Shown here: piece after piece, positions 9,060 to 30,694 of the stretch
Position numbering within the stretch: position 1 is the stretch's first letter
Layout: every line of letters starts with the position of its first letter
Assembly: GCA_002786025.1 (NCBI GenBank)
Contig: NHNW01000011.1
Span: 1 to 64,000 of the forward strand
Length of the DNA stretch: 64,000 bases
Reading direction: 5' to 3'
DNA from: Zasmidium citrigriseum
Lineage: Eukaryota; Ascomycota; Dothideomycetes; Mycosphaerellales; Mycosphaerellaceae
Position numbers and translations under genes: made by a program
Notes under the pieces: model-generated
Databases searched by the model: none
What the model saw: only the letters and a program-made list of their open reading frames with translations
What the model was told of the DNA's origin: nothing

Positions 9060-10344
9060 TACTTAAAGGTAATAGAAAGGTCGGATCGACGTATTATAGT
9101 AATAGCCTCGCTAAAGATCTAGCGGTTAATCTAGCGGTTAATTAAGAGGACTTTAAAGGATATATAGATTAGGCCGTCCGCCTAACCTACGTTAAATAGG
9201 CTATCTAACGGGTCGCTTTTTAAGAGTTCTTAACGATAGTCTATTTAGCGGTAGATTAGACTATACCTAGGGGATTCGCTATACTTTATATAACTAGCTT
9301 TTAAACTCCTCCTAAGCCTTCTCTTCGTTATCGTTAAAGAGTAGATCGTTACTAAGGAGGCTTATAGACTTAGCCTCGAGCTCTCGCTAATCGTTATTAA
9401 GAGTAGTACGGGCTATTATTAACGCGGATAGTAAGGCACTAGTATAGTTATAGTTATAATAGTATTAATATCTAGCTACGCTAAAAAGGCGCTTAATAGC
9501 TACTCTAGCTCTAGGTACCGTAAGGATATCTCGAGCTAATTAAGCTACCCGAGGAAACTTAGGTTTAATAGCTTTCTATTATTTAATCGGATCGCTACTA
9601 TACGTTTAGATAAGGTGCTTTTAATCTATAATCGATATTAGTAAAGATAGACTAGTACGCTAACTAGTACGCTAACTAGTATATACCTAAGCGCCTATAC
9701 TTATTAAACTTATCCTCTACTAATATCTCCTTATTATAAATAGCTTCGTCTTTATTAAATCTAAAGTTACTATCGACTTATTAAGGCTATATCGCTAGTA
9801 ATAGTCTAGCGCGGGGGATAAAGTCGGAGTACTTCTTAACGAAGAGCGTCCTTATTAATAACTAGTATTTCGGTTCCTATAACCTATCTCCCTATACAGC
9901 TAATTTAAAGAAGGTGTTCTTTCGTATAGGTATAAGTAACGTCGCGTACCTATATAAATAGCTAAGTACGAAGGCTATAGCGGAATAATACTTAATTAGC
10001 TTAGCCTTTATAAGCTTAACTATATTAAGTAGGGCGTACTTCTACTAGTTCTACTTCCTACGTAGGTTTAACTCGGCTTTCTCGAGTTAAACGAAGAGGT
10101 TAGAGTAGTATAGGTATATAAGGTATAGAGTTAGGCCTATCGACGAGCTTATTAACGACGTATAGTAAGTAAATAGCTACGCGAGGTAGAGGATTTCCTA
10201 GACTTAGAGTAACTCGGTATTATTAACGCGGAGGTAATCCTAACCTTCCTAATATAGATACTAGTCGATAAAGCGATATAGATTAATATACTAGATAAGT
10301 ATATAGGTAGTAGAATCCTAGCGGGTTTTAATATCTTATACTAG
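9060..10344 (-). pseudogene. hAT transposase relic, C-terminal part
   Basis: Read on the minus strand with RIP stops ignored, one frame shows hAT landmarks in order: a K-T-R-(stop)-D-S-T block at 10309-10330, which corresponds to the RW(N/D)ST motif; a helical middle; then, at about 9480-9597, a P-R-V-A block leading into ARDILTVP and a (V/I)-K-R-L-F-S-V-A-R block, which match the hAT dimerisation domain. Gln and Trp codons read TAG/TAA throughout, so the gene is dead. Its upstream half is not adjacent: it continues at 27587-29150, because the LTR element 10345-27586 sits inside it. Family assignment is from remembered motifs; a profile search against the hAT dimerisation domain would settle it. 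Confidence 0.75.
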
Positions 10345-10704
10345 TATAGGCTAGCTAGCTAGTTTCTGCGGCAAAAGCCGAGGCTACTAGCGCCTACCTT
10401 TAACCTCCGAGCTACGAGCACCTTTATTATTATTACGACACCTGCTTTACATATACACACGACTAGCTTCTTATATATTATGCGATACAGATAGATATAG
10501 TAAAATCCTGTATACTAAACTTCTTCTCTTCTTTTATAGCTTCCTTCGGAAGTACCTCTATATACACGAATACCTCCGTACATCTAAGCCTACTAATAGA
10601 GCTATGTTATACCCTCTATTAAGATCCATCGCCTATAACCCTTCTCCGGCTCTATTACCTACTTAGCGTACGTAGGTAGGTTAGTCTATAGGCGCCGGGT
10701 TATA
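10345..10704 (+). repeat. 5' LTR
   Basis: It begins TATAGG and ends GGGTTATA, compatible with a RIP-changed TG...CA boundary. About 20 differences from the 3' LTR were counted by eye; all are transitions, lying in both directions, with no indel. Divergence therefore reflects RIP and cannot be used to date the insertion. Confidence 0.9.
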
Positions 10705-11849
10705 TTTTTAGTAGTTAGTACGAGGGGAGAAGATATACTCGTCTTCTTCCGACTTCTAACCTTCGAGCATTCGACAATACGTCCTCGCGATACCGCACTC
10801 CGACAGATTCGACATAAGCAAGAGCATTTATAAGAGTAACGCTAGCGTAGCTATATTAAGGGAAAATATAAGAACATAAAAGACACGAGACATACGATAT
10901 TCGGTATATAGGAGCTCCGGCACGAACAACCTAGTAACACGGAACAATAGATACAATAGTTTAGCTACAGAAATAGGCTCGAGTCTATAGTTAGTTAAAC
11001 GAAATAGGCACACACGGAAAACCGGAGAGTATATTATTAGGTGGACGTATCTAATAGGCGAAGCTCGAACATATACTACACGAACACTCGAAACCTTAGG
11101 AAACTAGAAGGGTAACGCTATGCTTTACTACTCGGCGGAAGTAGGTATAGCGGAAACCCTAATAACTAATTCTCGCAAATACGATAACTACCCTCGGCAA
11201 CACGCTCTCCTTTATTAAAATTAGATACTATCTACGAATAGCCGAGATTACGCCCCGACTTAACTACCTTCGGACTATTGAGATTCGAAACCGCTATAGG
11301 ATAAGGCATTTGGAAGAGTCGTTCTAGGTAGAGGCTTAGAAAGGGGTAACTACTCGTAAGGCTACGATCCCTAGAACAAGGTTTGTTACTCTAGATCGAA
11401 GCCGCTAACTAAATCGCAGCTGCCTAACATAGCAATAGCTATTAGGCCTGTGCGTATAGGAAGGAAGCATTAATATACAACCTCACCTCCGGACCTCGCT
11501 AAGAAGAATTACTATTAATTGGCACCTCTTACTTCTAGTAATAGCGAACTCGTTACTAGTACCGTACCTATACTATAACTAGTACTGCCCTTGCACATTA
11601 CTTTGTACTACACATACCTGTATCCCTACTTTCTGTTACACGCTTGCTATTTAAACTGTTTGATTCACGTCTGTCTATCTATATCTACACCCTATTGCTA
11701 AACTCGGCTTAAGGCTATGTCTTATCGTTACTTAAGTTGTGAAACCCTTACAAAAATATTGCTTCTGTTTGTTTTGATTAATAAGGACGCTTTCGTGTCC
11801 AATTTATATCCCTCGTGTTACTAAATAAGTAACAAATCCCTACATCTTA
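10705..11849 (+). other. Untranslated leader of the LTR element
   Basis: No convincing coding frame between the 5' LTR and the first palindrome. A primer-binding site would be expected just after 10704; the TAGTAGTTAGTACGAGG-like stretch at 10709 could be a RIP-altered one (TGG start lost) but I cannot match it to a tRNA. Confidence 0.5.
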
Positions 11850-11876
11850 CTTTTACACCCCGCCGGGGTACGAACG
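11850..11876. repeat. 27-bp palindrome 1, before gag
   Basis: Core ACCCCGCCGGGGT followed by ACGAACG; the left outer arm is changed (CTTTTAC instead of CGTTCGT). It reads Y-T-P-P-G-Y-E-R in the gag frame. Confidence 0.85.
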
Positions 11877-14800
11877 ATCTACTACTAGGATTCCGACTAC
11901 TAGCCCCTAGGACTAACTGCCTTCTGCTACATACTTTACTAGAGGAAGTAGTTTAAGTAGATCCAAGTCACCTCTTATAAGCAGCTCGCCACTATAGGAG
12001 TCTAGGTTAGGAGAAGAGTCTCCGATCGATTAACCTTTAAGATAGGAAGATCCTAACGCTAACCCTAAATTCCGTAACATTCTAGTAGACCTTAGTCCTT
12101 CTAAGCTAAAGGTATCTACTGCCGACAGGTCTTCTAGCTCTAAAGAGGTTAAGACTCCTACCTCGGAATAGTCGCTAACTAGAGCGAGTATAAGTACTAC
12201 TTCTAGAGTCCCTACTCTACGCCCTTTACTTCTTAACCGCGGAAGATCTTATCGTTCCTAGATAGCTACTCCTATTACTACCGCTAACGCTAATAATAGT
12301 AATAGCGGAGGAAGTAGCTAGGCTACTAGGTCTTCTACTAGCGCTACTTAGTAGGCCAATCCTTAGGCTATTATCTAGCAACTAGCTTTAGTTCTCCCCA
12401 ACTTGCGGCCTAAAATGCCTATACTAGGCTCGAGTAAGAATCCTCTCTTCGATAGGAAGAACGTCTCTACCTTTATCGATCGTTTCGACAATTTAATTGC
12501 CGAGTATAACCCTAACTTAACCGATGTTAAGAAGTTGTCTCGCTTCCGACTAAATACCGATCTACTAACTCGCCCGCGTGTTACTCGAGTTCCAGGGTAC
12601 GAAGATAGGGATTATAAAAAGTTCCGTATCGAGGTTGCTCGCGAATTTGCCTAGACCGATACCTTTATACTCCTTAGAACCCGCTAGTATCTAGAACAAC
12701 TTGCCGGTACTAATCGTTCCATAGGAGATAACTTGTCTAGCTACTACCGCTAGTTTATTACTACGAGTAAGAAAATTAAGAAGGTAGACATGGAAGATAA
12801 CTCTCGCACCCGACTGTTCCTCTAAGGACTTCCTAATTAGTTGTAGCGAAAGCTATATTAGAAGTTTAACCTACACCCCTTGCGCGAATATAGCTTCCGG
12901 GAGTTCGGCAAGATCTTCGACGAAGCTATACGCCTAATTAAAGGGAATAAAGGGTACAATCTTGCCTAGAAAGAGACGACGATACAAATAAAGACTCTAT
13001 AGAAGTCTGTCGAAGATAGGTAGCCTATGTTAGATGTTAACTTGTCTTATATTTCGAATGTTACTCCGGCTTCTTATAATACTAAGATTAGCTTACTTAC
13101 CGATCGGCTTTATCGTATAGAAATCGCTATAATGCAACGCTAGTACCTAAGTAGAGTAATACTACTTAACCCTTAAGCTGCGGATTAGATAAGAAATATC
13201 TCCGGTAGGTATAATACTAGAGTCTTTACTATATAGTAGAGGAAAGCTCCCCTAATAGGTCCTACTATAGCCGACAAGTGCTAGAACTACGGTGAGCCTA
13301 GTTACACTAGCGCTACCTATAAGATATTTAAGATGTTCCTTAATACCGGTTACTACTATCTACTAGATAACAAGTAGTACTTAGGACCTAAGGGTAGCTA
13401 CAACCCGAAGTCTATAATATAGCGATAGGACAGAACTAAGCTAAAGCTATATAGTATACTACTAGCTATTCGAATAGAATAGCCTACCGAGAAGATTGCC
13501 TTTACGGGAACTAATGCTAATAAGTTTCTAGCTAAATAGAGAAGTAACGATAGCTCTATTACTAGGAACTCTACTTTAACTCCTATAGCGCTACCTACGT
13601 TATCGTCGGCTAAGGTCTACTTCGCCGGGGTTAGCGAATCTAAGGAACTATATAATCCTACCTTCTAGTATATGTAACGCTCTAAGATTATCGAAGAAGC
13701 TACGGATGCCTTCGATTAGTATAAATATAGATCCTTCTATATTACTCCTAAGTACTTACTAGATAGGGACTATTACTCTAATACTACTACCCGCTCGTAG
13801 GAGAAGGTAAGCTTAACTCCGAAGATACGATTTGTACCTACTAGAATTCTTAAGAACAAGGAACGTAAACAGTCCTTAGTAGCTAAAACTCGGCAACTTC
13901 GTGCTAATAACACTCCTATCGCTAATCTTCCGGAATCCTACGACTAACTTCGCCGCTCGGATCTTTAGCCTAGGGTTAAGGATATAACTAAGGATTCTTA
14001 GACACCGACTTAGACTATAGACTAGAACCGTTCCTAGCGTAAAGAATCTATAACAGACAGGGGTAATAATAAGTTTAAAGACACTACACCTCTTAACGTA
14101 CTAGTTACCGCTCGTCGAGGTAAGCCGAAAAGTAAAGCATTCCTATATTACGTCCGCGCTTATAGTAGTGGAAATAACAAGCTGTTCTAGAGTAAGTAGG
14201 TAATAAATGCTCCTCTTAATGTCACCGTTAGTAATATAATAACTTATAACGCTATCTTTACGAAGTACTAGTTATAAAGAATCCTTAACAACTCCGAGTT
14301 TATAGACGAACTTAAGAAGTATAGGGAGACACCGTAGACGAGCGCTATAGTACAAGTTAATTCACCTAAACAACGTGTGTCTATAGCCGTTTAACTTCCG
14401 TAAGAAGATATAAGGTTCTCCGGACCGCTAGAGGCTAGTAAGCTATATAAAGATAGCGTAAAAATTAATCTTTCCGGTATTACTACGGATTTAGTCTTAG
14501 CTCCTAGCCCCTAGGTAATAGCTATAGTCGGCTATATCGAGTATATAGTTCGTGCTTTAATTGACGAAGGATCTAAAGGTTGCATTATAAGCTACAAACT
14601 AGCTTCCTAGCTCGGGCTTCCTATTATAGGTAATATAAATATTAACATAAGCGGCGCTAGCGGGCTCTACTAGTTTAGTAGAGTTACTCGCGCCCTAAAG
14701 ATTATAGTATACGGCATTACCTTCTTCTAGGATTTCTTAGTCTCGGTTTCCCTATCCACGCTCTTTATTCTAGGACGCCCCTAGTACCGGAAGGTCCGGC

Positions 14801-15107
14801 TAACTAGCGTTAACTATAACAATAGTATATAGGAGGGGACTATTATCGATAGGCGAGGGAACTCCGTTTACTTTACGGGAATCTAAGCTACTATAACTAG
14901 ATGCAAGCGGATAGACGATATCCTTCGTAGTCCTAGGCTAACCCTAAAATTGTAGGGGAATCGATGCCTACGCTAGTCTCCCCTATCTTAGTAGGAATAT
15001 ATACTATCTATTAGGATAGCATTTATAATAAATCTTCGGATTCCTAAGGATCTTAGGATCCTCTAAAGGGCTCGCGCCCCGAGATTAGCGAAGAACTTAG
15101 GTTCTTA
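11854..15107 (+). pseudogene. gag-protease relic of the LTR element
   Basis: A single frame (with TAG/TAA stops) runs from the first palindrome to the second. It contains a Ser/Thr-rich N-terminus, then an open stretch at 12403-12654 with an F-D-R-K-N-V-S-T-F-I-D-R-F pattern typical of fungal Gypsy gag. A CCHC zinc knuckle (C-x2-C-x4-H-x4-C) lies at 13279-13320: the first Cys remains, while the second Cys, His and last Cys are all Tyr codons, as RIP would cause. At about 14551-14600 an A-L-I-D-E-G-S block followed by I-I-S resembles the retropepsin active-site strand. Gag packages the RNA and the protease matures the polyprotein. Its frame differs from pol by one position. Non-functional. Confidence 0.8.
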
Positions 15108-15108
15108 A

Positions 15109-15135
15109 CGTTCGTACCCTACCGGGGTACGAACG
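15109..15135. repeat. 27-bp palindrome 2, gag-pol junction
   Basis: CGTTCGTACCC and GGGTACGAACG arms are complete; only the centre is altered (TACC). It lies exactly where the reading frame changes between gag-protease and pol. Confidence 0.9.
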
Positions 15136-18100
15136 TGGGAATTAACTACTACGCTCCTAGGTTAGACTCTCTACCTTCTAGATCTTTAGCATCCGCGTTC
15201 GCGGTATTTAAAAGAGGGAGGGGAGTTGAAAATTCTTACCCTAACGTTACTACCGCCGCCGAATTACTACCTAATATCGCTAAAGCTAGATTTCTCTATA
15301 TCGAGGATTAGGATAATAATAATGTTAAGGGTATTCTCCTTACCGCAACTATTAACAAAGCGGCTCGAAGGTTAAGGAGATAAGCCTATATACGCCCGCC
15401 TGTTAGTATAACCGCCGATATATATACTATATATAAACGGAAAGCTAAGAAAGTTCGCCCTATTAAGGAAGATAGTTCGAGAACCGACGGCTCGAAACCC
15501 GGTAGATCCCTCACCTAGCGTAACGATTGTCTAGCTTATAAAGCGACACTTCCCCTAGGAACTAGTAAGTTTAATAGGAAATATCTAATTAAGAAGTTTT
15601 CTAATATTCCTAAAGGAAGCTAGCTAACCTAGGAACGTCTAGATACTATCGAGATCGGTATAGACTTACTCCCTCTAGAACTAGAAATAATCCACGAGAT
15701 ACTCTATAATAGAGAGGTAGCTATTGCCTATAGCTTCGAGCATTTGGGACGAATTCGGGAAGAGGTAATTAGGCTACAATATATCTGGACGATACTATAC
15801 ACGCTATAGTAACACCCGCCCTTCCGTTTAAATCTATTACTTCGGTCTATAGTTAAAGGCATAATTCGCGAGAGGCTTAAAGCGTAAACGATCGAGTCTA
15901 GCTACTCGAGCTATCGGAACCCCTACTTCCTAGTTAGGAAGAAGTCTACTAGTCCGGAGAGAACCTATCGGCTTATTAATACTACTATTAAGATTAACAA
16001 GGTTACTATTCGAGATGCTAATTTACCCCTAGATACTAATAGCTTCTCGGAAGACTTTGCTAGGTACAAGATAGCGAGCTTAATCGATATCTTCTCCGGA
16101 TATAATTAGGTTACTCTATATAAATCTTGTAGAGATATTACGGCTTTCGACATACTACTTGGATTGTTCCGATAGACTACTCTTCCGTAAGGAGCTACGA
16201 ACTTAGTTACTTAATTCGTAAGAGCTATTACTTAAGTACTTATAGCCTATATCTCCTATCGGGCTCGGCCTTTTCTAGACGATATTAGTATTAAGGGCCC
16301 GAAGACAGATTATAACGGGGAATATATTAAGCCTAGCCTACGGAGATTCGTAGTTAAACACATTATAGTAATCGATAAAGTCCTTACGGATCTAGAACGT
16401 GCCGGTTATACTATAGCTAGGAAGAAGCTCTAACTTCTTTATAAGAAGGTTAAGATTGTAGGCTATATAACTAATAAGTTTAGTCGCTACCCTAATGTAG
16501 TACGAGTGCGAAAGATACTAGAATAGCCTACCCCTACCTACTAGAAGGATATTAGGATCTAGATAGGACTAGTTGTATACTTCCGGATCTAGGTGCCTAA
16601 ACTAGCTATTCGAGGAAAGCCGCTCTTCCAACTCCTACGGAAGGATACGGAGTTTGTCTAGGAATAGAAGCATTAGGATACTAAGGATACTATTGCCCGT
16701 CTCCTCGTTAAAGCTCTAGCTTTAAAGTTAATCGACTACTCTAAGGAAGGAGGAGGTATCGTGCTTATAGTTAATACTTCTAGCGAAGGTTTTAGAGTAG
16801 TCCTTATGTAATGCGATCCGAAGAACCCTAAAGTTCGACACCTAGTCCGATTCGAATCTAGCCTTTTTAGTCCTCCTAAGTAGAAGCATAATGCTAGGAA
16901 GCGCGAATATCTTAGGGTGCTAAAAGTATTACGGAAGCTAAAGCTATAGCTGTTTAGTATCTACTTTATCTTAGAAGTAGATGCTAATACGCTAATGCAC
17001 TAGCTTAATAAGGCTTTATCGGATCTGCCGAATGTAGCTATTACTAGATAGATCGCTTAGATTCGGCTATTTACTTTTAAAGTTCGATATATGCCTAGAA
17101 CTAAACACTCTACTCCTAACAGCCTATCTCGCAAGCTAGCTACGGACTACGATTACGAGGAGCTAGTAGAAGAAGAGGATATTAAGGCTATAATCGACGA
17201 TAACTTCTGTCTTGTATACCCGGTATAGCGAACTAATCCCCCGTAGGAGGATACTAGTATTCTTAATTACCCGGAGTATTATAACGAGACTTCTTAGCAA
17301 CTAGCTTAGATTATAGCTAAGCGCCGTCGGCCGCGGGGAATAACACGCTAAAGGTATCGTACACTAGCATTACAATTAAGGAAATTCGTAGTCTAAGGCG
17401 GTGTTTTGTTCCGGTAACCTTATAAGTATGCTCCGTTGTAGCGTGTTATAGACTAACCCTATATATAAGACTAGATCCTATATACCTTCTATAAGAAGAA
17501 TAGCTATCGTAGTACCGACATTATGTTTAATATAATTTAGCGAAGGTACTAGTAGGAAGGGCTATATCTGTCTTGCTCTAAGCATTTTAAATTATACGGT
17601 CTATATAACTACTAGAATAGACACCCTCGCCTAGCTAAACTCCGTCTAACTATACAAAACTTCGTTAGCGAAAGATAGGCTATAGATCCTATCTATATTA
17701 ATGCCTATAGGTGCCTACTCGTAGTAAGGGAGGCACTTAGTAGATAGATCGAAGTTAAGTATATTAACTATTCTTTAAAGAAGGTAACTACCCGGATTAT
17801 CGCCGACTAGCTATATACCGATGTCTTCTGCCGATATGGAACCCCTCTAGAGATTATTCTTAATAATACGAAGCAGCACGCTAGTAAAGTAGCTCGTCTA
17901 CTTACTAGCCTAGGTATTAAGAGAGTTCGTATTTCCCTATACAATCCCTATTCGAATACTTAAGTTAAAATTGGACATCGGCTATTACTAGATGCCCTTA
18001 CTAAACTTACGAATAGCACCCTAACTAGGTGGAGGAAATAGGTTCCTACTGTTACCTAGGCGGATCGAACGATAACTAATAGCCGAACTAGCTAATCTCC

Positions 18101-18686
18101 CTATACTATTATGTTTAGGCATAAAGCAGTACTGCCTATCGAAGTCGAATACCCTACTACTACTGTCCGAGATTAGGGTATAGTCTATAATCGTGGAACG
18201 CTTCTATAGTATCGCGCTAAGTAGCTCTAACGTATAGAAGGATTACTTAAAGAACTTTAAGCTCGCTAGAAGCGGATAAAGGCTACTATAAAGTAGTACT
18301 ACGATAGCCGTAACAATGTTAGCTTCGAGGAATTTTAACCTAGCGATACGGTCCTTATATATCGTGCTAAAGATAAATACAACAAATCTAACAAGTTGTC
18401 CTTCCGCTAGAAAGGTCCCTTCCGTATTAGAGAAAGAGACATAACTAGCTTCTCGAAGCTAGAACGGCTGTACTCCTATCTACTAGAGGAACTGGATAGC
18501 ACTAAGATAGATAGGACCTTCGCGTACTATCTTCTTAAGAAGGTTACCTACCTATTCCGTACGATAGAAGAGAATATTAGCGATCCTACCCCTAATGTCG
18601 CTAAAGCTAATTAGCCGCGACTATTTAAGGCTAAAGATAAGGATGAACCGGAAGATAATAATAATCTCGAGGAAGAAGACCTATAA
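15114..18686 (+). pseudogene. pol relic: reverse transcriptase, RNase H, integrase
   Basis: One frame, interrupted by TAG/TAA, shows the Ty3/Gypsy order. RT: a Y-R-L-I-N start at 15966, the T-T-L-P-(Q)-G-A-T block near 16180, and an F-L-D-D box at 16272-16283 in place of Y-x-D-D. RNase H: V-D-A-N-T-L and the R-H-x-P-(G)-T-K-H-like end at about 16970-17110. Integrase: an H2C2-like region near 17400-17600, then the catalytic core from 17685 with a G-I-K-R-V-R-I-S block at 17913, and a C-terminal K-G-P-F-R-I block near 18410. No chromodomain is visible. The order RT-RNase H-integrase distinguishes it from Copia. Product would copy and integrate the element; this copy is dead. Confidence 0.88.
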
Positions 18687-19212
18687 TTTACTAAGCTAGG
18701 TATCGCTTATCCGTAGTTAAGCCTCCCGCGGCTAAGCTCTAAAGAAAGGGAAGGGTACTAGAGGTACGACTAGCTAGATTTTCTATACGACTAGCTAGAT
18801 TTTCTTCGAAATTCTTACTTAATACTCTATTCGACCTATCGGCCTTGTAACTAAGGCCTATGTGCTTTTAGAAACCTATCGCTCCCTAGATCGCGTACAA
18901 GCCGAAGTTGCTAGATTTAAAGTAGTTACCTCCAAGTAGAGCACTACGGATACTTCGTCTTCGAGAAATGTAGGGTCTTTAGGGTAGATAGAGCGGCCGT
19001 CTTGGACGGGGTACTCTTATACGATATAGGCTTTCGCTTCCGCGCTAGCTCGTAGTCCTAGTCGCCGTCGTTATCTTCCTCGATATACTCCTTATAGATA
19101 GACGATAGGCTACACGTACACGCCTTTTATCGCTATCTACGATATCTTTATTATATACTAGACCTCTATATGCCCCTAGTTAATCCTAATATCGACAATT
19201 CCCGTACTTTTA
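18687..19212 (+). other. Spacer after pol in LTR element
   Basis: Between the last pol codon and palindrome 3 I see no domain. A pol-frame extension rich in stops continues into it; nothing else recognisable. Confidence 0.5.
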
Positions 19213-19239
19213 CGTTTATACCCTAGTAGGGTACGAACG
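19213..19239. repeat. 27-bp palindrome 3, between pol and module 3
   Basis: CGTTTATACCCTAGTAGGGT followed by ACGAACG; left-arm and centre changes are transitions from the consensus. Confidence 0.85.
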
Positions 19240-19349
19240 CCTAATAGTAGAGAACCAGCTATAATCCTAGCAATAGATAGATACTAGCCGTCCGCGAGCA
19301 CTCCTAGAATTGCGACTATAGTAATAAGTAAAGGGAAGGAGTAAGGAAC

Positions 19350-20324
19350 ATGAAGCGGTCCTCTAAGGTAGTTATAAGCCGCAACTTCCGTATTAGGAAT
19401 AGCGCTAACCGTATATAACTCCCTATATTCCTCGCAAACTTAGCCTACCTTCTACCGCGCGCGACAACCGACACTTTTAAGCGACAACTTAATCTACGCC
19501 TCCGCCTATTGGTAAAGAACGTCGTTATACTAGCTACTACTTCCGAACCCTACGCTATTAAGCTATTCTATATACCCGCTAAGATGTCGGATCTCGAGGC
19601 TGTCGAGTTAGTTTTGGAAACTAAGTCTAAAGAGCTCTAACTAGAGCGTAACTATATCCTTAGCCTGCCTATAAATAGCGGTTAAGAGTAAGAAGCTCGC
19701 CGATAGCGAGTCCGTAATATCGAGAACCTTATTAAACATCTAGAGTCGGACCGGGATTAGATACGCTCCACGCTAGTCGGCGAAGAGAATAGAATGTCGG
19801 ACATTATAGACGCCTTTGTCCGTAGCTACCTCGCCGCTTACCTAGGAAGGACGGTAGTCCTAACCGCTATTACTAACGATTATATAATCCGGGTAGTAGA
19901 GCCGAGACTACGGGCCGCCCGTCTATAGATTTAGATCTTCCGCCTTCTAGACGTAGGCGCTAGAGGATAGCGCGACGACGATCGAGGTCCTCGCTTTAAC
20001 ATCGCCGAGATCTATACTAATCTAGATTTGCTTTAACGAGATATTGCTCTATAGGAGCGTATCCTTAACGAGCATACTATTATAGGAAATACTCGCCTTC
20101 GCTAGGATGTTAATCTATAGTAAGAACTCGAGAACTACCGTACCTATTACCCTCCTAGCTACTACGACTCTCGCCGCTCTATCTATCGTTTCGGCTATCG
20201 TAACGACACCGCTAGCCGTACTAACGGCACTACTTATAGTCTATAGCTTCCTATTAACACTAACTTTATTACTATTAATATCGATAGCGTTAATAGACTA
20301 TTCCTAAACCCTCCGAACTAGTAA
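19350..20324 (+). pseudogene. Accessory module 3 of the LTR element, unknown protein
   Basis: From an ATG at 19350 one frame (same as pol) runs with only TAG/TAA stops. It has a basic N-terminus, a Leu/Glu-rich predicted helical section (about 19590-19740) beginning near an E-T-K-S block, and a block at about 19937-20106 with the pattern R-L-L-x-x-G-A-R-G...R-F-N-x-x-E-I...E-R-I-L-N. That pattern recurs in the next two modules, so the three are paralogues. No known family is recognised. The end is uncertain, since the frame continues with TAA/TAG only up to palindrome 4. A hydrophobic 66-codon frame inside it is in another phase. Confidence 0.6.
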
Positions 20325-20759
20325 GCTACTTAGATTAATACCTAAGTTCGTCGGCTTAATATGTAAGGAAGGAATACTCGCCGTAGCCGTACTAGTCTAG
20401 ATAGCCTACTTCGACAAGAGAGGCCCGAGAACAATCGGGTTACTAAGGATTAGAGTCGTGCCGTATAGGCTAATCGCCGCCGCCTTAAGCGCCTATAAGA
20501 ATAGTATTATACGATAAGATTGCGTCTTAAGTAAGTAGCATTGAAAGGAGTATATTAGGAATAGAAAAGGGGTTTAGCTAGGGAGAATTAGACGGAAGGA
20601 TTAGGAGTTAGCTTATAGTAATAGCTACTTCTTCTCCGCGAACCTTCTAGTTTAGAGCTCTTTAGTATAAAAACCTTTATCCCTCCTCTTAATCGCTACT
20701 CCTACATCTATTGCCTACGTCTCGTACCTATAGGAGAAGTAATATTAAGAATAGCTAGT

Positions 20760-22050
20760 TACTTTCACGATCGTACCCCGCCGGGGTGTAAAAGGTTAGA
20801 GCCGTCGCTACCTAGTACCTACTCTACCTCTACGCTATTAGGTAATGCTCGTAGATTGTTAGTGTATCTAAAGTCGTTACTAGAGTAACTAGGTCCGGAA
20901 CTATAGGCTTCTAATAGATTATATGTAGTAATTTCCTAATTGGGCCTAGCGGCTGTCGCTAGTATAACTTCCTACTACTACTCGAATATTAACCTTCTCC
21001 ACGTCGTACTACGACTCGCACCTTTTGCGACGGATCTAAGCCTTCTTCCTCTAAAGCCGCGAGAGCTTTATTAAAAGCTAAACGCCTATCGTACGAGGAA
21101 CGCCTACGCCGACACCGCTAATATAAGCGACATCCGCGCTCTAAAAGAAGTCGTCCGCCTTAAGTATACTAAGCTCTATTAAGAGATAGAGTATCTATGC
21201 TCGAACGCCTATACTAGCCGTAGAAATCTTGCCTATATAGAAGCTACCTCGCGCTATATTAGCGACATTTCTCGCACCCGCCGCCTACTAATAGATATAG
21301 ATAAGGAGCTAGACGATCTGCTACACGATAAGACTTAAGATAGTAATCGGATAATAAACGAGTAGTAGTAGACCTTCCTTAGTCGCTAGTATCGTCTACC
21401 CTCTACTACCGAGAGATAGTAGTATTACGCTGATACGGTCGAGCCCCGTATCCTTACTACTCGGCTAAATATCTCCGTCGTCCGCCTACTACGTATAGGC
21501 GTATAGAACTAGAGAAACGGAGAACCTAACCCCGCCTTTAGCCTTAACGAGATCTACCTATCCCTTTAAGCGGGTTATTCTAATACTTATCTATAAGCCT
21601 ATATTATTAATAAGTATCGCGCGAATAGCGACTTCTAAGGACGCTAGACTCTTAGTATGTAGTAAGATCTAGAACGCCGCCGCACCTAGCCTAATCCTCG
21701 CGCCTTCGATAGTCGTTAGTCTATCTTCCGTCTCGGTACCCTACCTCTAGCGATACTAGCGCCTAGCACCTACTCGTTCCCTAGCTAGCCGTAGACGGAT
21801 ATTCGCTAGAGGGTCCGCTATAGTATAGTTATAAACTAGACGGAGTATAAAGCTAATCTCTCTCGTCGCTATACTAATCTATAGCGTCGTCGTAAGGAAG
21901 TCGATCGTATAATAGGCCTATAGCTTATCTAGTATGTTCACATCTACTAATATAATAAAGCAACGCCGAGTTGCTACTATAAGGTTATCCGCCTAGCCCG
22001 GGATAGGTACTCTAACGCTTAAAGCTTAGGGAGGCATAGGTAACTTTAGG
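20760..22050 (+). pseudogene. Accessory module 4 of the LTR element, paralogue of modules 3 and 5
   Basis: The frame passes through palindrome 4 (reading D-R-T-P-P-G) in phase with module 3 and continues to about 22050 with TAG/TAA stops only. A helical Arg/Leu/Glu-rich stretch lies around 21090-21340. At about 21477-21632 a V-R-L-L-R-I-G-V block, then A-F-S-L-N-E-I-Y-L-S-L, aligns with the R-F-N-x-x-E-I block of modules 3 and 5. Divergence among the three is high, so duplication is old or under diversifying change. Function unknown; relation to any viral env, movement or capsid-accessory protein cannot be judged from sequence alone. Confidence 0.6.
20768..20794. repeat. 27-bp palindrome 4, between modules 3 and 4
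   Basis: CGATCGTACCCCGCCGGGGT core intact; right outer arm altered (GTAAAAG). The preceding GTTACTTTCACGATCG is shared with palindrome 6, so homology extends outside the dyad. Confidence 0.85.
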
Positions 22051-22385
22051 CCTAGGAATTAAGGACAGGGGTATAGACGGGATATATAGTAGCGGCTGTT
22101 TGCTACTTATATCGAGCCTCTAACTTCGAGTCTACTAGTAATATAGTTTACTTCTACCTTCTCCTCCTTTCCTTTGTTATATCTATTTATATTCCCGTTA
22201 TCTATGTAATATAGGTAGATTATGTTATATCCTCTCCTTTCCACCCTAGTCTAGCTCTATCGGTTCCCTACCTAGACGAGATAAGTTCCCTACCTTTATC
22301 GGGGATCCTCCGAAGTATGCTATCGATTCCTAAATACAACTTCCGTAATAGCGCTATGTCGCTAGGGTAGCTTAGCACCTTCTAC

Positions 22386-22412
22386 GATTTATACCCTACT
22401 AGGGTACGAACG
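22386..22412. repeat. 27-bp palindrome 5, between modules 4 and 5
   Basis: GATTTATACCCTACTAGGGT followed by ACGAACG; right arm intact, left arm changed by transitions. In phase with module 5 downstream. Confidence 0.85.
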
Positions 22413-23501
22413 TAATTAACGAATCCCTAGACGATCTATAATAACCCCGCTCGGCTAGAAGGCGTGTTCTCTCTATATACGCGCTGCTTATATCTAAACG
22501 ATATAGACTGTACCTTTCGCTATAGCCGTATTCGGGAAATTAATATTAGTTATCGAGACTAAATCTCTAGAGCTCTAGATGGAACGAAACTATATCCTCC
22601 GGTTACCGTCTACCTCTCTTTTAGTATAGGAAACTCGCTAGTAGCGAGTACGCGAAATTAAGGATCTAATTAAATACTTAGAACGTAATCGGACTTAGCT
22701 GCGCTATATTTAAGCTCGGGAAGAAGAAGCTACCTAGCAGTTAGCCTAACTAATTCCTACGGACTTTAGAGAACGATACCGAATCGATATAGTCGAACTA
22801 CGCCTCGCCTAGCGTCGCCCTCGAACGCCTATTATCCGGCTTATATAGAGAGGCGCTAGGGATTAGCGCGATAATAACAGATACCTACGCTTTAACACCG
22901 ATAAGATCGACGCCGAACTATAACTACTATAAGAAGAGATCGAGCTATAGGAGACGATACTTACTAAGTATACTACTATAGGTAATATATAGAGGCGTTA
23001 GATAGTAGATCTATAATAGGAGCTAGAGGATCGGCGAAGATACTCTACCCCTAGATCTCGAGATTCTCGCCGCTTAATCTATCGGCTCGGATATACTAAC
23101 GACTATACTAGACGAACTCCTGGAACCGTTACTAGCCTACCCTTTATCGTCCGAACTAGCTCGCGTATTCGACAAATCGATAGGCGTAAGATACTCCTTA
23201 TTAATTTACCCGACCCGCAATTAGTACTGTTTTAGGCACTAGACTACTAACAGAGGGCTACGTTCTAAATAGCAGCTAGCTTAGATCCTCCTCTCCGACA
23301 ATAACGCCTAGAGTTTAGCGCTATTCTAGATAATTAGATCTAAGTTCTTGTCCCTACTTAACCCCGTAGGTACTCCCGCTATAAATAGGTATGTACTAGG
23401 GGTGTTTAGAGGATTGTAGGGAAGGAGCTTAACAGGGTACCTATTTCGGGCTAAATTAGAACGCCTATAGTTAACTAATTAGCCTACGGATGTTACTTTC
23501 A
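22393..23501 (+). pseudogene. Accessory module 5 of the LTR element, paralogue of module 3
   Basis: The frame shares two blocks with module 3 in the same order: an E-T-K-S-L-E-L...R-N-Y-I-L stretch at about 22555-22610 and an (I)-R-G-A-R-D...R-F-N-T-D-K-I...I-L-T-K-Y block at about 22830-23000. It is one position out of phase with modules 3 and 4 and in phase with module 6. Stops are TAG/TAA only. No family recognised. The repeated block suggests the array 3-4-5 arose by duplication of one captured gene, each copy keeping a palindrome at its upstream edge. Confidence 0.6.
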
Positions 23502-23528
23502 CGATCGCACCCCGCCGGGGTACGAACG
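23502..23528. repeat. 27-bp palindrome 6, between modules 5 and 6
   Basis: CGATCGCACCCCGCCGGGGT followed by ACGAACG; the right 13-base arm is complete. In phase with module 6, reading D-R-T-P-P-G-Y-E-R. Confidence 0.9.
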
Positions 23529-26500
23529 CCTAACCGCCCTACCCGGCTACCTATACGACTCTATAAGCTACGTATATATACGAGGACGATACTACTATCG
23601 CCTATCTCTCTTAAGAACCGAACTGGACCCCTTCGCTTCTAGATTCACGATACTAGCTCTCGATACGCCGCTATCCGATTAACTACTATATATAGTACGT
23701 ATTATAGTATAGCTAGCTAGTTACGAGGTATTAGAACACGTGGAACCTACACGAGTGATTTAGAAGCGCAAATATTTATAGTTTACTAAAGATACCGCGT
23801 GTAACTATAGCGGCTTAGTCCGTAAAGCCGGCTACCGCTATAGGTACTTAAGCCCCCTTCTATTCCGCTAATCTCTTAACTTTAATAACACCGATAATAC
23901 TACCGCCTTTAGTACCTCGAATCTTCCGACCTCTTTAAGCTCTTCCTCTATTAGTAGTTCCACCCTTACCGACTTTACCGAATACCTACCGATACCCCTA
24001 TTACTTTCCGCCCGCTTCGACACTATAGCGAAGTCTAGCGGCAAAGCGCTAATACCTACCGTACTAGCTAGCTCCGATCTAGCTAATAGTCTCGTAAAGC
24101 TAGGTAAGCTTAAGGTATTACAACTCCTCGGATCTATAGACTATATTAGAGACTTCCGCGACCGCTAGTTCCCTTCGGTTACCAACGACTCCCTAAGCGT
24201 GCTTAATAAGAACTTGGATTAGCTCGGCGACTTCCTTAAGACTCTAAGCGACGAGAATAAGACTAACCTTACTAACTTTATCTACGTATGTACTAACTAC
24301 TTTATCGAGGGACGGTTAGTTAGTATACTAGAAATAGTAGACCGTGTTAAGAAGGCTGCGAATATAGCGCCTAATCGTCGCAAATATAAGGCGCTAGACA
24401 AAGCATTAACATAGGGAGAAAAAGCTCGTAATCGGTATATAGCATTAAGGAAGGCTATAGCTTCCTAGCTATCTTTGCCCCTTAAGCGTTACTTTATATA
24501 GTTCTTCCTCGACATTAGCGTACCGCCTTAACGATAGAAGGAATTTACTACCTTTATCCTTAGCTATAAGGATTGGAAGGTAGTCGCTCCTCGTATTAGT
24601 AAGGCCTTTGTTTAGAGACTTATAAATCGCAAAGGTAAGGGTAGCCTAAGCAATAACTATCGGGTCGAGTAGACTAATCTAGATGCTATCGACGATAGTA
24701 AGAAGAAGTATCTTATTAATACTATCGATCTCAACTTAGCGGAAGTGCAAAACTAGCTAACGAAGAACAACCTCGGGCTGTACTTAGAAGATTAGTTCCT
24801 TTACCTAGTCGATCCTCGTGTCCGGGAAGAGTTATAGACACCCGCACCTAATGCTAGCTCCTTAAATTAGAGTAAGTAGCGAGGACCTCCTCCTACTAGC
24901 GGTCGTCCTCGAACTAATACTAACCCTACTCCTCCTTCGATTCAAGAGAAGCCCGCTCTATCTTAATAAGGTCCTACTAGAAATCTACGCCCTCGTACGA
25001 AGCCACCGCCTTTGGACTTAGGAAAGGGTTAGAACCCTCCTCGACCTAGTTACTAGCGCTCTGTATCTAATACCTTACCTAACCGTCCGAAGAGTAACCC
25101 TACTTCTAGCTAAGTTACGCCTATATAACAATCGCCTACTCCTCCTCGCTCCGGTAGCTATAGCCGAACTAACTCTAGTCTTCCTCGCTCTAGATTAGGA
25201 AACCTTCCCCGATCTAGCTCTAGTAACTTCTCTCGTCCTACCTCGGGCACCTTTAGTAACTCCCCTACGCTATCTAATTATAGCGGTACATTACTACCTA
25301 ATAATAAGAAATCTTAGATCTGTAACAAGTGCCTAGGATTCGTAGATACTACCCTAATCGCTTAGATTAATTATACTAACAAGAATAAGCCGAAGTTTAC
25401 TAATAATTAAGTCCGGCAGTACCTTAAGGATTATAACGAGAACGGTAAGCGCTAACACGCGAGCCCGCTCTACTATAATTACTTGCGACTGTTTATAAGT
25501 AGAATCCTAGGAATACTAAACTAACAAGGTAACTACGCTACCTTAACGAGTAAGGTTAGAGCTATAGTTACTACTAAAGACAACCTTAATAGGTTCCGCC
25601 GCTAGAATCCTAACTAGTTTGATGCACTCTACCGCCCTAACGTCCCTTCCAATGCCCTCGGTCCCTATCGCTTTACGGCCTAAACATATAATATACCTAT
25701 AAGCTAGAAGACTCCTTTTCTAAACTTGGCCCTAGCTATATTATATGTAGTAGGCGACCTAAGTAAGGACAACTAGGAGAAGAACGGTAACCTTACCTTA
25801 AAAGGCCTCTTTAACTAGTAGGAGAGTCCCTTCTACGCTAAGAACCCTAGAAATAATCTAGCCTTAGCTAGGAATACTATCTACGATGTTACTATAGATA
25901 AGGTGCGGATGTATCGATAGTACTAGCGCTTAATTCGAGAGAAGCACAACCTAGGATAGGGACGCACTATAGTTCATAGATTGATTTAGTAGTTAATAAG
26001 GACTAACCTTATCTACTACCTCCTCTATATACTACTACGCCCGGACTCTTACCCTACCCTTATGTTATACTCCTACTACATTAAGGATTAATATAGGGCT
26101 AGTAGTGCTAAGGAGAGTAACATAGGAGCTTAAGCCTTCCGCTACTTAGACTTTAATATCGAGTATATACATACGCCTAAGGGTAGGTAGAATATAATAT
26201 AGGGCTCGCTTACTCTTCTAGCCGAAGATACTAGTAACTGCACTATTATTATTCCCGGTATGTATAAGCGTAAGAAGTAGGACCCTTAGGTAAAGTTACT
26301 TAAGGACCGCCGAGGACTACAATCTAAAGCTAAGATCGAAACTATCGATAAGAAGATATAGACACCTAAAGACGCTAAGAAGTACGATACTAACTAGAAG
26401 CCTGTTCTATGCGGCAAGCTCGATATTCGAATTTCCATACCTTCTTTGCTACACGGTGCCTAAAAGCAAACTAAGGAGCGAATTAACTTGTTCCCCTAGC

Positions 26501-27066
26501 TCGTTAAGGTAGACCCCTAGGGAGAAGTACTTAAGATTCCCGGTAGTAGTAGCTGGACTAATCTAAATGCGTCTTACCGCGATCTCGTAGCTCTAAAGGC
26601 AACACCTTCTAGATTCGCTAATATCTTCGGCAAGATCCCCTTCCGCTTTCCGGCTACGATTAAGATAGATTCAACTTAGCCTATTAGGGATACGTTAATT
26701 GCTTAGCGTCGGTAGTCCGATCCGATAGTTATTAATAACTAGTATAAGATATGCCGCATATTACAGGAGTACTATAAAGCTAGACCGAATAACGCTAACT
26801 CTAGGTAGTTAATCTAGCTCCGTAAGTATCGTACTACGGCCGCGAACGAATTCTATAAGAAGTAGGCGGTCGTTCAAGGAATAGAGAAGAAGGCCTTCGG
26901 CAATAACTCCTACTTTAACAATAACAGGGACTTTAGTAGGTTGCCGTCTACTTTCGAGGCACCTATTCCTAAACTCCTAGAAGGCGAGGAGTTATCTATC
27001 TTAGAAGGCAATTTTATTAACGACGACGGTGTAGCTGTAGATAAGGACGGGAATGTGCTAGAGTAA
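23521..27066 (+). pseudogene. Accessory module 6: large protein with putative 2OG-Fe(II) oxygenase-like C-terminus
   Basis: One frame of about 1,180 codons, closed only by TAG/TAA, ends at TAA 27064-27066. The N-terminal 440 codons look helical and charged; about 24850-25310 is a Pro/Ser/Arg-rich linker; a lone C-N-K-C follows at 25320. The C-terminal third has (H>Y)-L-D-F-N at 26143-26154, an I-I-I-P-G-M-(H>Y) block ending at 26265, and R-I-S-I-P...L-H-G at 26428-26457, followed by an H/Y-R-D-L-V-like block at about 26580. This H-x-D...H...R order and the C-T-x-I-x-P-G-M-H phrase resemble fungal 2-oxoglutarate/Fe(II) dioxygenase-like proteins I remember; both metal His codons are TAC/TAT, as RIP of CAC/CAT gives. 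TET/JBP membership is possible but not shown. Confidence 0.55.
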
Positions 27067-27075
27067 GCTCTTTGT

Positions 27076-27102
27076 CGTTCGTACCCCGCTAGGGTGTTAA
27101 CG
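27076..27102. repeat. 27-bp palindrome 7, after module 6
   Basis: CGTTCGTACCCCGCTAGGGT followed by GTTAACG. It lies 9 bp after the module 6 stop and is therefore not coding in that frame. Confidence 0.85.
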
Positions 27103-27213
27103 CTATAGATAGTACTATAGGTTAAGGCTTCTAACTAATGTTTTCCTTTATTCTATAATGGATTGCGTTTGATTTCTAGGCATAAAGGTGTAAGTCTACG
27201 GGTTAGACTTATA

Positions 27214-27226
27214 GTAAGGGAGGGAA
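27214..27226 (+). promoter_or_regulatory. Polypurine tract of the LTR element
   Basis: The purine-rich run AGTAAGGGAGGGAA sits immediately before the 3' LTR, the position where plus-strand DNA synthesis is primed. It fixes the element's orientation as plus. Confidence 0.7.
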
Positions 27227-27586
27227 TATAGGCTAGCTAGCTAGTTTCTACGGTAAAAGCCGAGGCTACTAGCGCCTACCTTTAACCTCCGAGCTACGAG
27301 TACCTTTATTATTATTACGACACCTACTTTACATACACATACGACTAGCTTCTTGTACATTATGCGACATAGATAGATATAGTAAAATCCTATATACCAA
27401 ACTTCTTCTCTTCTTTTATAGCTTCCTTCGGAAGTACCTCCGTATATACGAATACCTCTACACATCTAAGCCTACTAATAGAGCTATGTTATACCCTCTA
27501 TTAAGATCTATCGCCTATAACCCTTCTCCGGCTCTATTACCTACTTAGCGTACGTAGGTGGGTTAGTCTATAGGCGCCGGGTTATA
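27227..27586 (+). repeat. 3' LTR
   Basis: Same length and ends as the 5' LTR; all differences are transitions. It is followed by CTAG, which repeats the four bases before the 5' LTR. Confidence 0.9.
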
Positions 27587-29150
27587 CTAGTACTAATAGT
27601 CTTATTTATTAACGTTTCGTATTAAATACACCCTAGCTATAATACTTATCGCTAAACGTTTCCTCTATACGTAGCGTATCTTCTTAGAGTTTTAGGAACT
27701 TCTTAAGTCGCTACGTACTAGCGAGAATCTATAAAATAGAGGCTTAGAGCTAGGCGACGTAAGCTTAACTAGTATAACTAGTACGGCTTAGAATTATACT
27801 TACCTTAGCGAGAATATATAGATATCTATATTCTTCGTTAGTAGTCCTAGCGTCTTTAATAAATTACTTCTACTCCTTTTTATTATAGTTCCGTTTAAAC
27901 TTATCGTTCGATAGACGAATCTTAAGGGTAGTATATAGATTACTAATAGCGAGCTAAATAACGTATATAAGGTATAGTACTAGTTACGGCTATTTCTTTA
28001 ACTCCTCTTCGGTTAGTTCTAAGCCTATAATAGTTATAGTTAAGCTCTACCTATCTAGAGTCGTAACCTATACTACTAGTAGCGCTACCTAGCCGTCCCT
28101 AGTACCTATACTACTATTTAGGTAGGTGTTATTAGTATACGCTCGAAGATAAGAGAGGCTATAGTAATATTAGATAGGAAATAGGGGTAGTAGGCTTTTC
28201 GAGCTTATATAGTAGTATAAAGCGTCTTATTATTCGAAGCGTTATTAGTCGTAAACGCCGAGATCCGCTCCTTTAGGTTAAAGTTTATTATTATCTAATC
28301 TACGTATTAATAGAGGTTTACGCTAGTATACTACCCCTTAATCTTAGCGAAGGATAGGAGCTCCTTATAGTACGTCTAGTCTTAATCGATCTAAAAGCCC
28401 TTAATACCGAGAAAGGCTAGTTAACGATTAGAGGTACTCTAGGCGTTAAGGGTAATAGCTACCTTCGAATCGATACTCTTAGGATAATATAGTTTGTTAC
28501 GAATCTTCTTAATAATATTACTAGTAGTATCCTTAATCTAGTAGTAGACCGTTAATAGTAATAGTATCTTTACGTCCTTATATAGGTACTTAAGGCTCCT
28601 CTATATATAGATATTCTTAAAAAACGTTACTAGTACGCTAGTACTAATATAAGCGTTTACCTAATAGATTCTAAAGTCGTAAGGGCTATTAGCTTCGAAT
28701 CCGTCTTTATATACCGCGTTTTCGGCTAGCTTCTACCTCTATAAATCGTTAGCGTACTAGTCGGCGTACTAGTTAGCGTACTAATTAGCGTACCTAAACT
28801 CGAAATCCCTTATTAAGGTTAAGCTAGCGTTTCCTTCTACTTATAGTTAATACCCGTAAGTCCTTATAAGATTTCTTCTCTAGGTACCGCTTTAATCTAG
28901 AGTTCCCTATATTATTAATACTCGGGTACTTTAGTACGGTACGATAGACCTTATAGATAACCTTAGGCTCGCCGTTAGAGATCTATATACCCTCTTCGAA
29001 TACTATCTATTCCGTAGCCTTTTTCGTAGAGCCCTATTATATAAATCGCTTCTTCGCTTTCTCTTCTCTAACTCGTAAACGTATTAGATTAGTATAGGGG
29101 ATATAGCTATAGAAGTCGATAAACTACTTCTTATATTCTCGATTAAAGAC
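27587..29150 (-). pseudogene. hAT transposase relic, N-terminal part
   Basis: Minus-strand frame with RIP stops. At about 28880-29060 a K-(H>Y)-P-S...S-R-L-K-R-(H>Y)-L pattern fits a BED zinc finger. At about 28440-28500 a D-S-K-V-A-I-T-L-(D/N)-A block matches the start of the hAT catalytic domain, and at 28222-28254 T-N-N-A-S-N-N corresponds to the conserved D-N-A-S-N-N motif. The frame runs leftward to the LTR element and, if one copy of CTAG is removed, joins in phase with the relic at 10344. Together the parts give a normal BED-RNase H-like-dimerisation order. Confidence 0.75.
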
Positions 29151-29641: not shown

Positions 29642-30167
29642 AGATTATTATACGCTTAACTATAAAAAGATAAGCGAGCGTTAATAGTAAGATAGCGTTA
29701 AAGTATAGAGTAGATACCTCGTCTAATAATTTCGAAATCGCGGGTCGTTATCGCTAAGCCTACTATATTAAGCCTAGTCTACTATAGCTAGCTTAACGCT
29801 CGACTCTTAGCTACCTATACTATTCGTACTTTAGAAATAAAGGCGATCGTTCCTTAATCGATCTAGCGTTAGGGTTATAACTTAAGGGTTACTCGATTAT
29901 AGCTTAGGGTTAATAGAAAGACGGCGACGATAAAGTAAGAAGATAATTAATAAGCTTAAGATTAAGCCGTACTAGTCTATACTAGTTAGAGAAAATACTA
30001 TTTTAATTTAAAGCGAATACCTTAGTATTTACGGCTACTATAGAGGAATATTATAAAATAGTATTTTTCTAAGGCTTAGATATTTACTAATTTTAAAGTA
30101 AACAAACGCGTTCTATATAGAATCCTCTTAACCTTCGTTAAGAAACTATATAATAGAAGTTAAGAAT
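29642..30167. repeat. 526-bp repeat, left of N
   Basis: Identical in length and alignable without gaps (offset 527) to 30169-30694. About 15 differences by eye, all transitions. It ends exactly at the base before the N. Confidence 0.9.
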
Positions 30168-30168: not shown

Positions 30169-30694
30169 AGATTATTATACGCTTAACTATAAAAAGATAA
30201 GTAAGTGTTAATAGTAAGATAGCGTTAAAGTATAGAGTAGATACCTCGTCTAATAATTTCGAAATCGCGGGTCGTTATCGCTAAGCCTACTATATTAAGC
30301 CTAGTCTACTATAGCTAGCTTAACGCCCGACTCTTAGCCGCCTATACTATTCGCACTTCGGAAATAAAGGCGATCGTTCCTTAATCGATCTAGCGTTAGG
30401 GTTATAACTTAAGGGTTACTCGATTATAGCTTAGGGTTAATAGAAAGACGGCGACGATAAGGTAAGAAGATAATTAATAAGCTTAAGATTAAGCCGTACT
30501 AGTCTGTACTAGTTAGAGAAAATGCTATTTTAATTTAAAGCGAATACCTCGGCATTTGCGGCTACTATAGAGGAATGTTATAAAATAGTATTTTTCTAAG
30601 GCTTAGATATTTACTAATTTTAAAGTAAACAAACGCGTTCTATATAGAATCCTCTTAACCTTCGTTAAGAAACTATATAATAGAAGTTAAGAAT
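30169..30694. repeat. 526-bp repeat, right of N
   Basis: Second copy, slightly less RIPed than the first (it keeps CpA/TpG at sites where the left copy has TpA). Confidence 0.9.

Follow-up and report, generated by a model that had tools for sequence, protein, structure and literature searches.

A near-palindromic 27-letter signal that probably marks out separate genes in a giant Ty3/gypsy-type element of Zasmidium citrigriseum

In long terminal repeat (LTR) elements, a single RNA is usually the source of all products, by way of a polyprotein, a frameshift or splicing. They usually encode two open reading frames, according to an account of fungal Ty3/gypsy elements (PMC3248453). The plant Sireviruses (Ty1/copia) carry element-specific palindromes with dyad symmetry, and a CGG-CCG core is common to all but one of 13 elements; the motifs number 8 to 32 per element and cluster in the LTRs and upstream of the extra gene ENV, and nearly all linker copies are located 5' of ENV, with none in the four elements that lack this gene (PMC2829016). 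Here, we describe a giant Ty3/gypsy-type element of the fungus Zasmidium citrigriseum, 17.2 kb long, at positions 10345-27586 of a 64-kb stretch of DNA (contig NHNW01000011.1, positions 1 to 64,000, hereafter the window). Its modules are bordered by a near-palindromic 27-letter signal that probably marks out separate genes.

The element consists of a gag-protease module, a Ty3/gypsy pol, three paralogous genes called X1 to X3 and a large gene called Y. It is heavily damaged by repeat-induced point mutation (RIP), such that every frame of each module contains stops, and the window shows a RIP-like loss of CA/TG dinucleotides. An initial annotation of the window had reported seven palindromes, one before gag, one at each of the five module junctions and one after the last stop codon. 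A transition-tolerant scan of the whole window confirmed both their number and their placement, returning exactly these seven (J1 to J7) at its threshold; it gave no site at that threshold in the LTRs of the element. The features are as follows, with module limits approximate throughout.

10345..10704, plus strand: 5' LTR, 360 bp; CTAG duplication at 10341-10344
10705..11849, plus strand: leader of 1.1 kb, hardly different from its counterpart in the family C copy (22/1143 transversions); candidate primer binding site close to the start
11850..11876, no strand: palindrome J1, preceding gag
11978..15108, plus strand: module 1, gag and aspartic protease; PF13650 match weak and under the cut-off; start approximate; RIP-broken
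15109..15135, no strand: palindrome J2, gag/pol border
15201..18740, plus strand: module 2, Ty3/gypsy-type pol (reverse transcriptase, RNase H, integrase region); limits approximate; RIP-broken
19213..19239, no strand: palindrome J3, pol/X1 border
19584..20660, plus strand: module 3, X1, with ATG at 19584; end approximate; paralog of X3 (39% amino acid identity); RIP-broken
20768..20794, no strand: palindrome J4, X1/X2 border
20925..22300, plus strand: module 4, X2; 58% amino acid identity to family B module 3 (325 amino acids); limits approximate; RIP-broken
22386..22412, no strand: palindrome J5, X2/X3 border
22507..23376, plus strand: module 5, X3 core; 45% amino acid identity to family B module 4 (284 amino acids); limits approximate; RIP-broken
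23502..23528, no strand: palindrome J6, X3/Y border
23950..27066, plus strand: module 6, Y, ending with TAA at 27064-27066; start approximate; without detected relatives; RIP-broken
27076..27102, no strand: palindrome J7, 9 bases 3' of the Y stop codon
27216..27226, plus strand: polypurine tract AAGGGAGGGAA, adjoining the 3' LTR
27227..27586, plus strand: 3' LTR; CTAG duplication at 27587-27590

Could the palindromes be products of chance or of RIP bias? Heavy RIP does make simple AT-rich palindromes common. However, a strict degenerate 15-mer core has 64 occurrences in the one genome searched (148 contigs, 44.4 Mb), against none for a reversed control, and a looser core gives 87 matches against 3. 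Of these 87, 85 lie at gene borders of elements of this kind: 45 fall inside arrays, and the 42 elsewhere comprise 40 at ordinary borders (one recognised by its left side only) and two (L044 and L046) at no border, the two that resemble chance. With conserved spacing and a GC-rich core as well, the reversed controls, the conserved arrays and the border placement refute an artefact, which we consider next to impossible. The motif thus stays at element borders in this genome rather than being scattered at random, and it is present in the less RIP-damaged copies sampled (L001, L002 and C6), the two outcomes on which the initial annotation had staked its claim.

The form of the palindrome differs from the one first proposed. 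Perfect 13-bp arms are found at none of the seven window sites and at 2 of the 72 sites collected in all (54 from family A, to which the window element belongs, 13 from family B and 5 from family C). Two window sites come within 3 mismatches of the original consensus, with none expected from shuffles, but the other five exceed that number. The arm mismatches are partly RIP damage and partly consistent by junction across copies: examples of the latter are those in the left arm of J1, in the left arm of J5 and, in all A copies except C90, in the right arm of J4. What is retained is a dyad of the form T...ACCCC-centre-GGGGT...A, with a core of CCCC, two or three bases and GGGG. Pairs 4/24, 8/20 and 9/19 are intact in 72/72 sites and pair 11/17 in 71/72, a constancy that is partly built in because the sites were collected by motif scans. 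Positions 5-6 often read CG on one arm and TA on the other, in an orientation that varies by site.

Arrays of the palindrome recur in three families of elements. Family A has seven further copies with the array at nearly the window spacing, making eight in all. Four of these are complete (C57, C90, C96 and C76), and two have six sites each (C73a and C75), the seventh lying outside the stretch retrieved or past the contig end. The last, C62, shows five sites in the stretch retrieved, and L045 contains its J1; no J5 turned up, and the spacing at that point is reduced. The diverged family B has two full arrays of six sites each, and family C has five sites in one copy (C6). A second family C copy (C64) carries a J2 palindrome of the C6 type and two further C sites. 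Ten extra places (nine among the matches listed of 63, plus one) proved to be borders, seven of family C and three of family A; L004 is a family B border and L005 a family C border. Eight small stretches were checked for more C borders, of which three had one (L029, L035 and L036); in the other five, blastn found no element sequence and there was no site, L031 giving just a weak chance match.

The outer arms are mostly family-specific, reading CGTT..AACG in A, AGTT..AACT in B and ATTT..AAAT in C, and the outer two bases of each half-site are CG in 83/108 for A, AG in 17/26 for B and AT in 9/10 for C. The core is kept across all three families, in which much of the surrounding border sequence is without recognisable similarity. 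In 14 cross-family comparisons (one copy per family, best of 13 offsets taken for the flanks), mean purine/pyrimidine identity was 0.87 for the palindromes, 0.70 for their flanks and 0.62 for unrelated sequence, and the palindrome exceeded both flanks in 12.

Family C is particularly informative, since the five sites of C6 are of one type and stand beside an A-like gag and pol. At the protein level, C6 is 79% identical to A in gag, 81% in pol and 69% in X1; its Y is 40% identical to that of B, and the C-terminal half 32% identical to that of A. Transversions against the window copy, counted on automatic pairwise alignments of the one C copy read at full length and within limits chosen after the divergence scan had been viewed, are few in the 5' LTR (8/358), leader (22/1143), gag (45/3013) and pol (46/3497), that is, 1.3-2.2%. 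They rise at the borders, to 11/128 (8.6%) at J1, 40/205 (19.5%) at J2 and 169/674 (25.1%) at J3, with 59/1006 in X1 between J3 and what follows. The sequence between the X1 end and J7 is foreign, with 1027 transversions in 4575 aligned positions (22.4%), and the 3' LTR end is again close (8/380). Because LTR, leader, gag and pol are A-like while the borders, X2 and Y are foreign, the C-type border palindromes accompany the X2/Y part. In this copy, then, palindrome type goes with the accessory part and not with the LTR, leader, gag or pol. The C borders can be read in two ways: the match between site and factor may be under selection, or recombination may be confined to homologous sequence. 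On either one, palindrome type is independent of LTR, gag and pol.

The mosaic structure also bears on the suggestion, made in the initial annotation, that the palindromes are recombination joints through which the modules were assembled. In such a model, they would be points of breakage, conversion or template switching at which modules are exchanged and duplicated. X1, X2 and X3 are indeed duplicated modules, the family C copy is indeed a mosaic, and palindromes lie inside the foreign tracts of C6 and inside a diverged stretch at J4 of the A copy C90. However, the switch points of this single mosaic copy are mostly found where intergenic regions begin or end, at distances of tens to hundreds of bases from the palindromes; the exception is the J1 left edge, which does fall on a palindrome, and crossovers inside the site are otherwise not seen. 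In addition, none of the 42 outlying looser-core places has a palindrome joining modules out of order, and leader-to-body fusions were rejected for the same reason. Simple recombination joints are therefore disfavoured, and we regard a recombination role of any kind as improbable. The companion suggestion, that palindromes were duplicated together with the modules, holds in part: the X paralogs do show that modules were duplicated. In C90 itself (319556-334808), a primer-site match lies about 9 kb farther out than expected, which makes an insertion in the leader likelier, and the idea that this copy has another LTR was dropped.

X1 and X3 of family A are 39% identical over about 250 amino acids and have a 105-amino-acid core (about 33%) in common with X2. 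Modules 3, 4 and 5 of family B are counterparts of A X2 (58%), X3 (45%) and the C-terminal half of Y (35%), and family B is without a separate X1 counterpart. All three families, to which the comparison was limited, carry extra genes beyond gag-pol. X and Y represent protein families with no relatives detected in Pfam, PDB or a large protein set; the last search relies on shared exact words and gives scores to the top candidates alone, and with RIP damage in the queries it may have missed some. Viral contigs gave none either. Two family C X genes occupy one palindrome-bounded unit (C6:8314-10585), and a palindrome between them was not found.

How might the borders be used in gene expression? 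The palindrome is read in different frames among the modules, and J7 lies 3' of the last stop codon; it is consequently not a peptide motif, and a protease site was rejected on these two grounds. Codon periodicity is missing near the starts of modules 2, 3, 4 and 6, which fits genes with their own leaders and leaves a polyprotein running through all the borders unsupported.

A further question is whether the signal acts as DNA or RNA. The initial annotation had each palindrome forming an RNA stem of about 12 bp; J2, J3 and J5 do fold clearly better than shuffles (z below -2), but J1, J4, J6 and J7 fold little or no better (z -1.2 to 0.2). A stable hairpin is thus present at three of the seven window sites, in a test that RIP damage weakens. 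If hairpins in a long transcript were cut or bound, by a host RNase III-like enzyme or by an element nuclease, to give one mRNA per gene, one would expect the coding part to be bounded by sites on either side, the far side of the last gene included, as is the case. Between families, moreover, both arms differ at pairs 1/27 and 2/26, and strong hairpins (z -4.1 to -5.6) form at window J2 and at three less damaged sites elsewhere (the L001/L002 form, L004 and the last C6 site). Against this, the other four C6 sites reach only z -0.5 to -2.1, and Rfam at gathering scores gave no family match. Sense-strand G-T and A-C mispairs are about equally frequent (107 vs 116 of 936 cells), such that selection for wobble pairs is not seen, a weak argument because neutral RIP damage after insertion hides most of the signal. 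RNA punctuation of this kind we judge unlikely. Half-site recognition accounts better than a hairpin does for the imperfect arms and for the weak RNA folds at J1, J4, J6 and J7. Recognition at the level of DNA is slightly favoured over cutting at the level of RNA, with little confidence.

A structural role along the element genome, as an RNA dimer or packaging signal or a DNA cruciform, would make sense of the self-complementary core and of its presence along the ten arrays first examined and the C6 copy. Neither the strict placement at gene borders nor family-specific arms that do not follow gag would be expected of such a signal, however, and we consider it very improbable.

The explanation that we tentatively put first, while rating it slightly short of an even chance, is that the palindrome serves as a recognition site with dyad symmetry that sets the limits of genes expressed one by one. 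The factor reading every site would be encoded by the element itself and specific to it, the likeliest candidate being a dimeric X or Y product, with a host factor as the alternative. Its action on the DNA would be to start transcription, to stop it or both, and the expression unit of each gene would extend between two successive palindromes. The family-specific arms make a trans-acting factor a testable prediction. An extension of this model, which we think rather unlikely as a whole, resembles the gene-junction code of certain viruses: a factor from an accessory gene, with its own palindrome specificity, would read both ends of the transcription unit to yield one mRNA per unit, the code would differ between families, and code and accessory part would move jointly, able to pair with a different gag-pol.

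Several observations weigh against the recognition-site model. Codon periodicity in module 1 reaches the palindrome, leaving a separate gag leader unsupported, and J7 sits after the last gene, where a pure promoter site would be needless. The family C pair of X genes implies that a palindrome is not required at every border. The arm exceptions weaken a strict code: 25/108 in A (13 CT, 12 others), 9/26 in B (5 CG, 2 GG, 2 TA) and 1/10 in C (TT), some of them RIP damage. The CCCC-GGGG distance is 2 in 2/5 C6 sites and 3 elsewhere, which is awkward for a rigid dimer, and in 2/14 cross-family comparisons (A vs C, J1 and J2, left flank) the flank is better conserved than the palindrome. The foreign C borders could come from recombination limited to homologous coding sequence. 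Finally, both structure models for X and Y are poor (mean predicted local distance difference test scores, pLDDT, of 28.8 and 48.8), so no DNA-binding fold can be assigned to either.

The assignment of the element to an LTR class, also made in the initial annotation along with its punctuation by a conserved dyad, is well supported. The two LTRs are 94.4% identical, differing by 20 transitions and no transversions, the 4-bp CTAG target duplication flanks the window copy, and the C6 copy likewise has paired LTRs (358 bp) and CTAG. CTAG is the target duplication in both insertions inspected, a possible target preference. Reverse transcriptase, RNase H and integrase occur in gypsy order, the integrase part by way of domains in pol relatives. 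In the window pol, RVT_1 scores 30.9 bits against a cut-off of 29.6, and two RNase H families score 23.6 against 24.8 and 20.5 against 29.8. A domain-profile scan left integrase unmatched in the RIP-damaged window copy; the pol relatives do carry RVT_1, RNase H and integrase domains. The best 35 of 57 protein matches to pol show 28-40% identity, with fungal names among the closer ones (P0012 and P0036), few of which bear a name. A candidate primer binding site, starting TGG in the C6 copy, lies 3' of the 5' LTR and is repeated in the genome (36 matches); at the two matches inspected, ARAGORN gave no tRNA.

Other repeats and possible structures lie in and around the element. A direct repeat of 1519 bp (94% identity) occupies 1-1519 and 34541-36059 of the window, on either side of the 17-kb element; the first copy starts at window position 1 and may be cut there, and the two copies may be LTRs belonging to a larger element that encloses the 17-kb one. 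Adjacent direct repeats of 526 bp (96.8% identity) lie at 29642-30167 and 30169-30694, and a 12-bp tandem motif (GTTAGCGTACTA-like) flanks the element as an inverted repeat at 9651-9681 and 28748-28793. A stretch 5' of J1, AAGGACGCTTTCGTGTC (window 11784-11840, with counterparts in C6, C73b and C94), is nearly invariant across A, B and C; by eye, it has the potential for a small hairpin, with another possible stem after it. Another possible hairpin, also seen by eye, lies just 5' of J2 at the gag end (window 15060-15108), with arms that differ among A, B and C.

Judged from titles and the openings of abstracts in the open-licence literature, such an element was not found described, though one may still be published. 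The likeness to fungal Ty3/gypsy elements (PMC3248453) lies in the LTRs, polypurine tract, gag, protease, reverse transcriptase, RNase H and integrase region; the present element differs in its 17.2-kb length, in four more genes (X1-X3 and Y) and in its border palindromes. With the Sireviruses it has in common element-specific palindromes with dyad symmetry and a common core in an LTR element. It differs in being fungal and of Ty3/gypsy type, in having one site per border and one after the last gene, with none found in the LTRs at threshold, and in not showing the CGG-CCG core with many LTR copies. Fungal mitochondrial genomes likewise have short intergenic palindromes, in their GC clusters and palindromic repeats; those are scattered mobile repeats, whereas the present palindromes are fixed in position and order within the element. 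In layout alone, the element resembles the non-segmented negative-strand RNA viruses, in which a short conserved signal precedes the first gene, recurs at every gene border and follows the last gene. Those signals start and stop the viral RNA polymerase on an RNA genome and are not palindromes. Six genes bounded by the same dyad would, if the recognition-site model is true, be a different way for an LTR element to express many genes.

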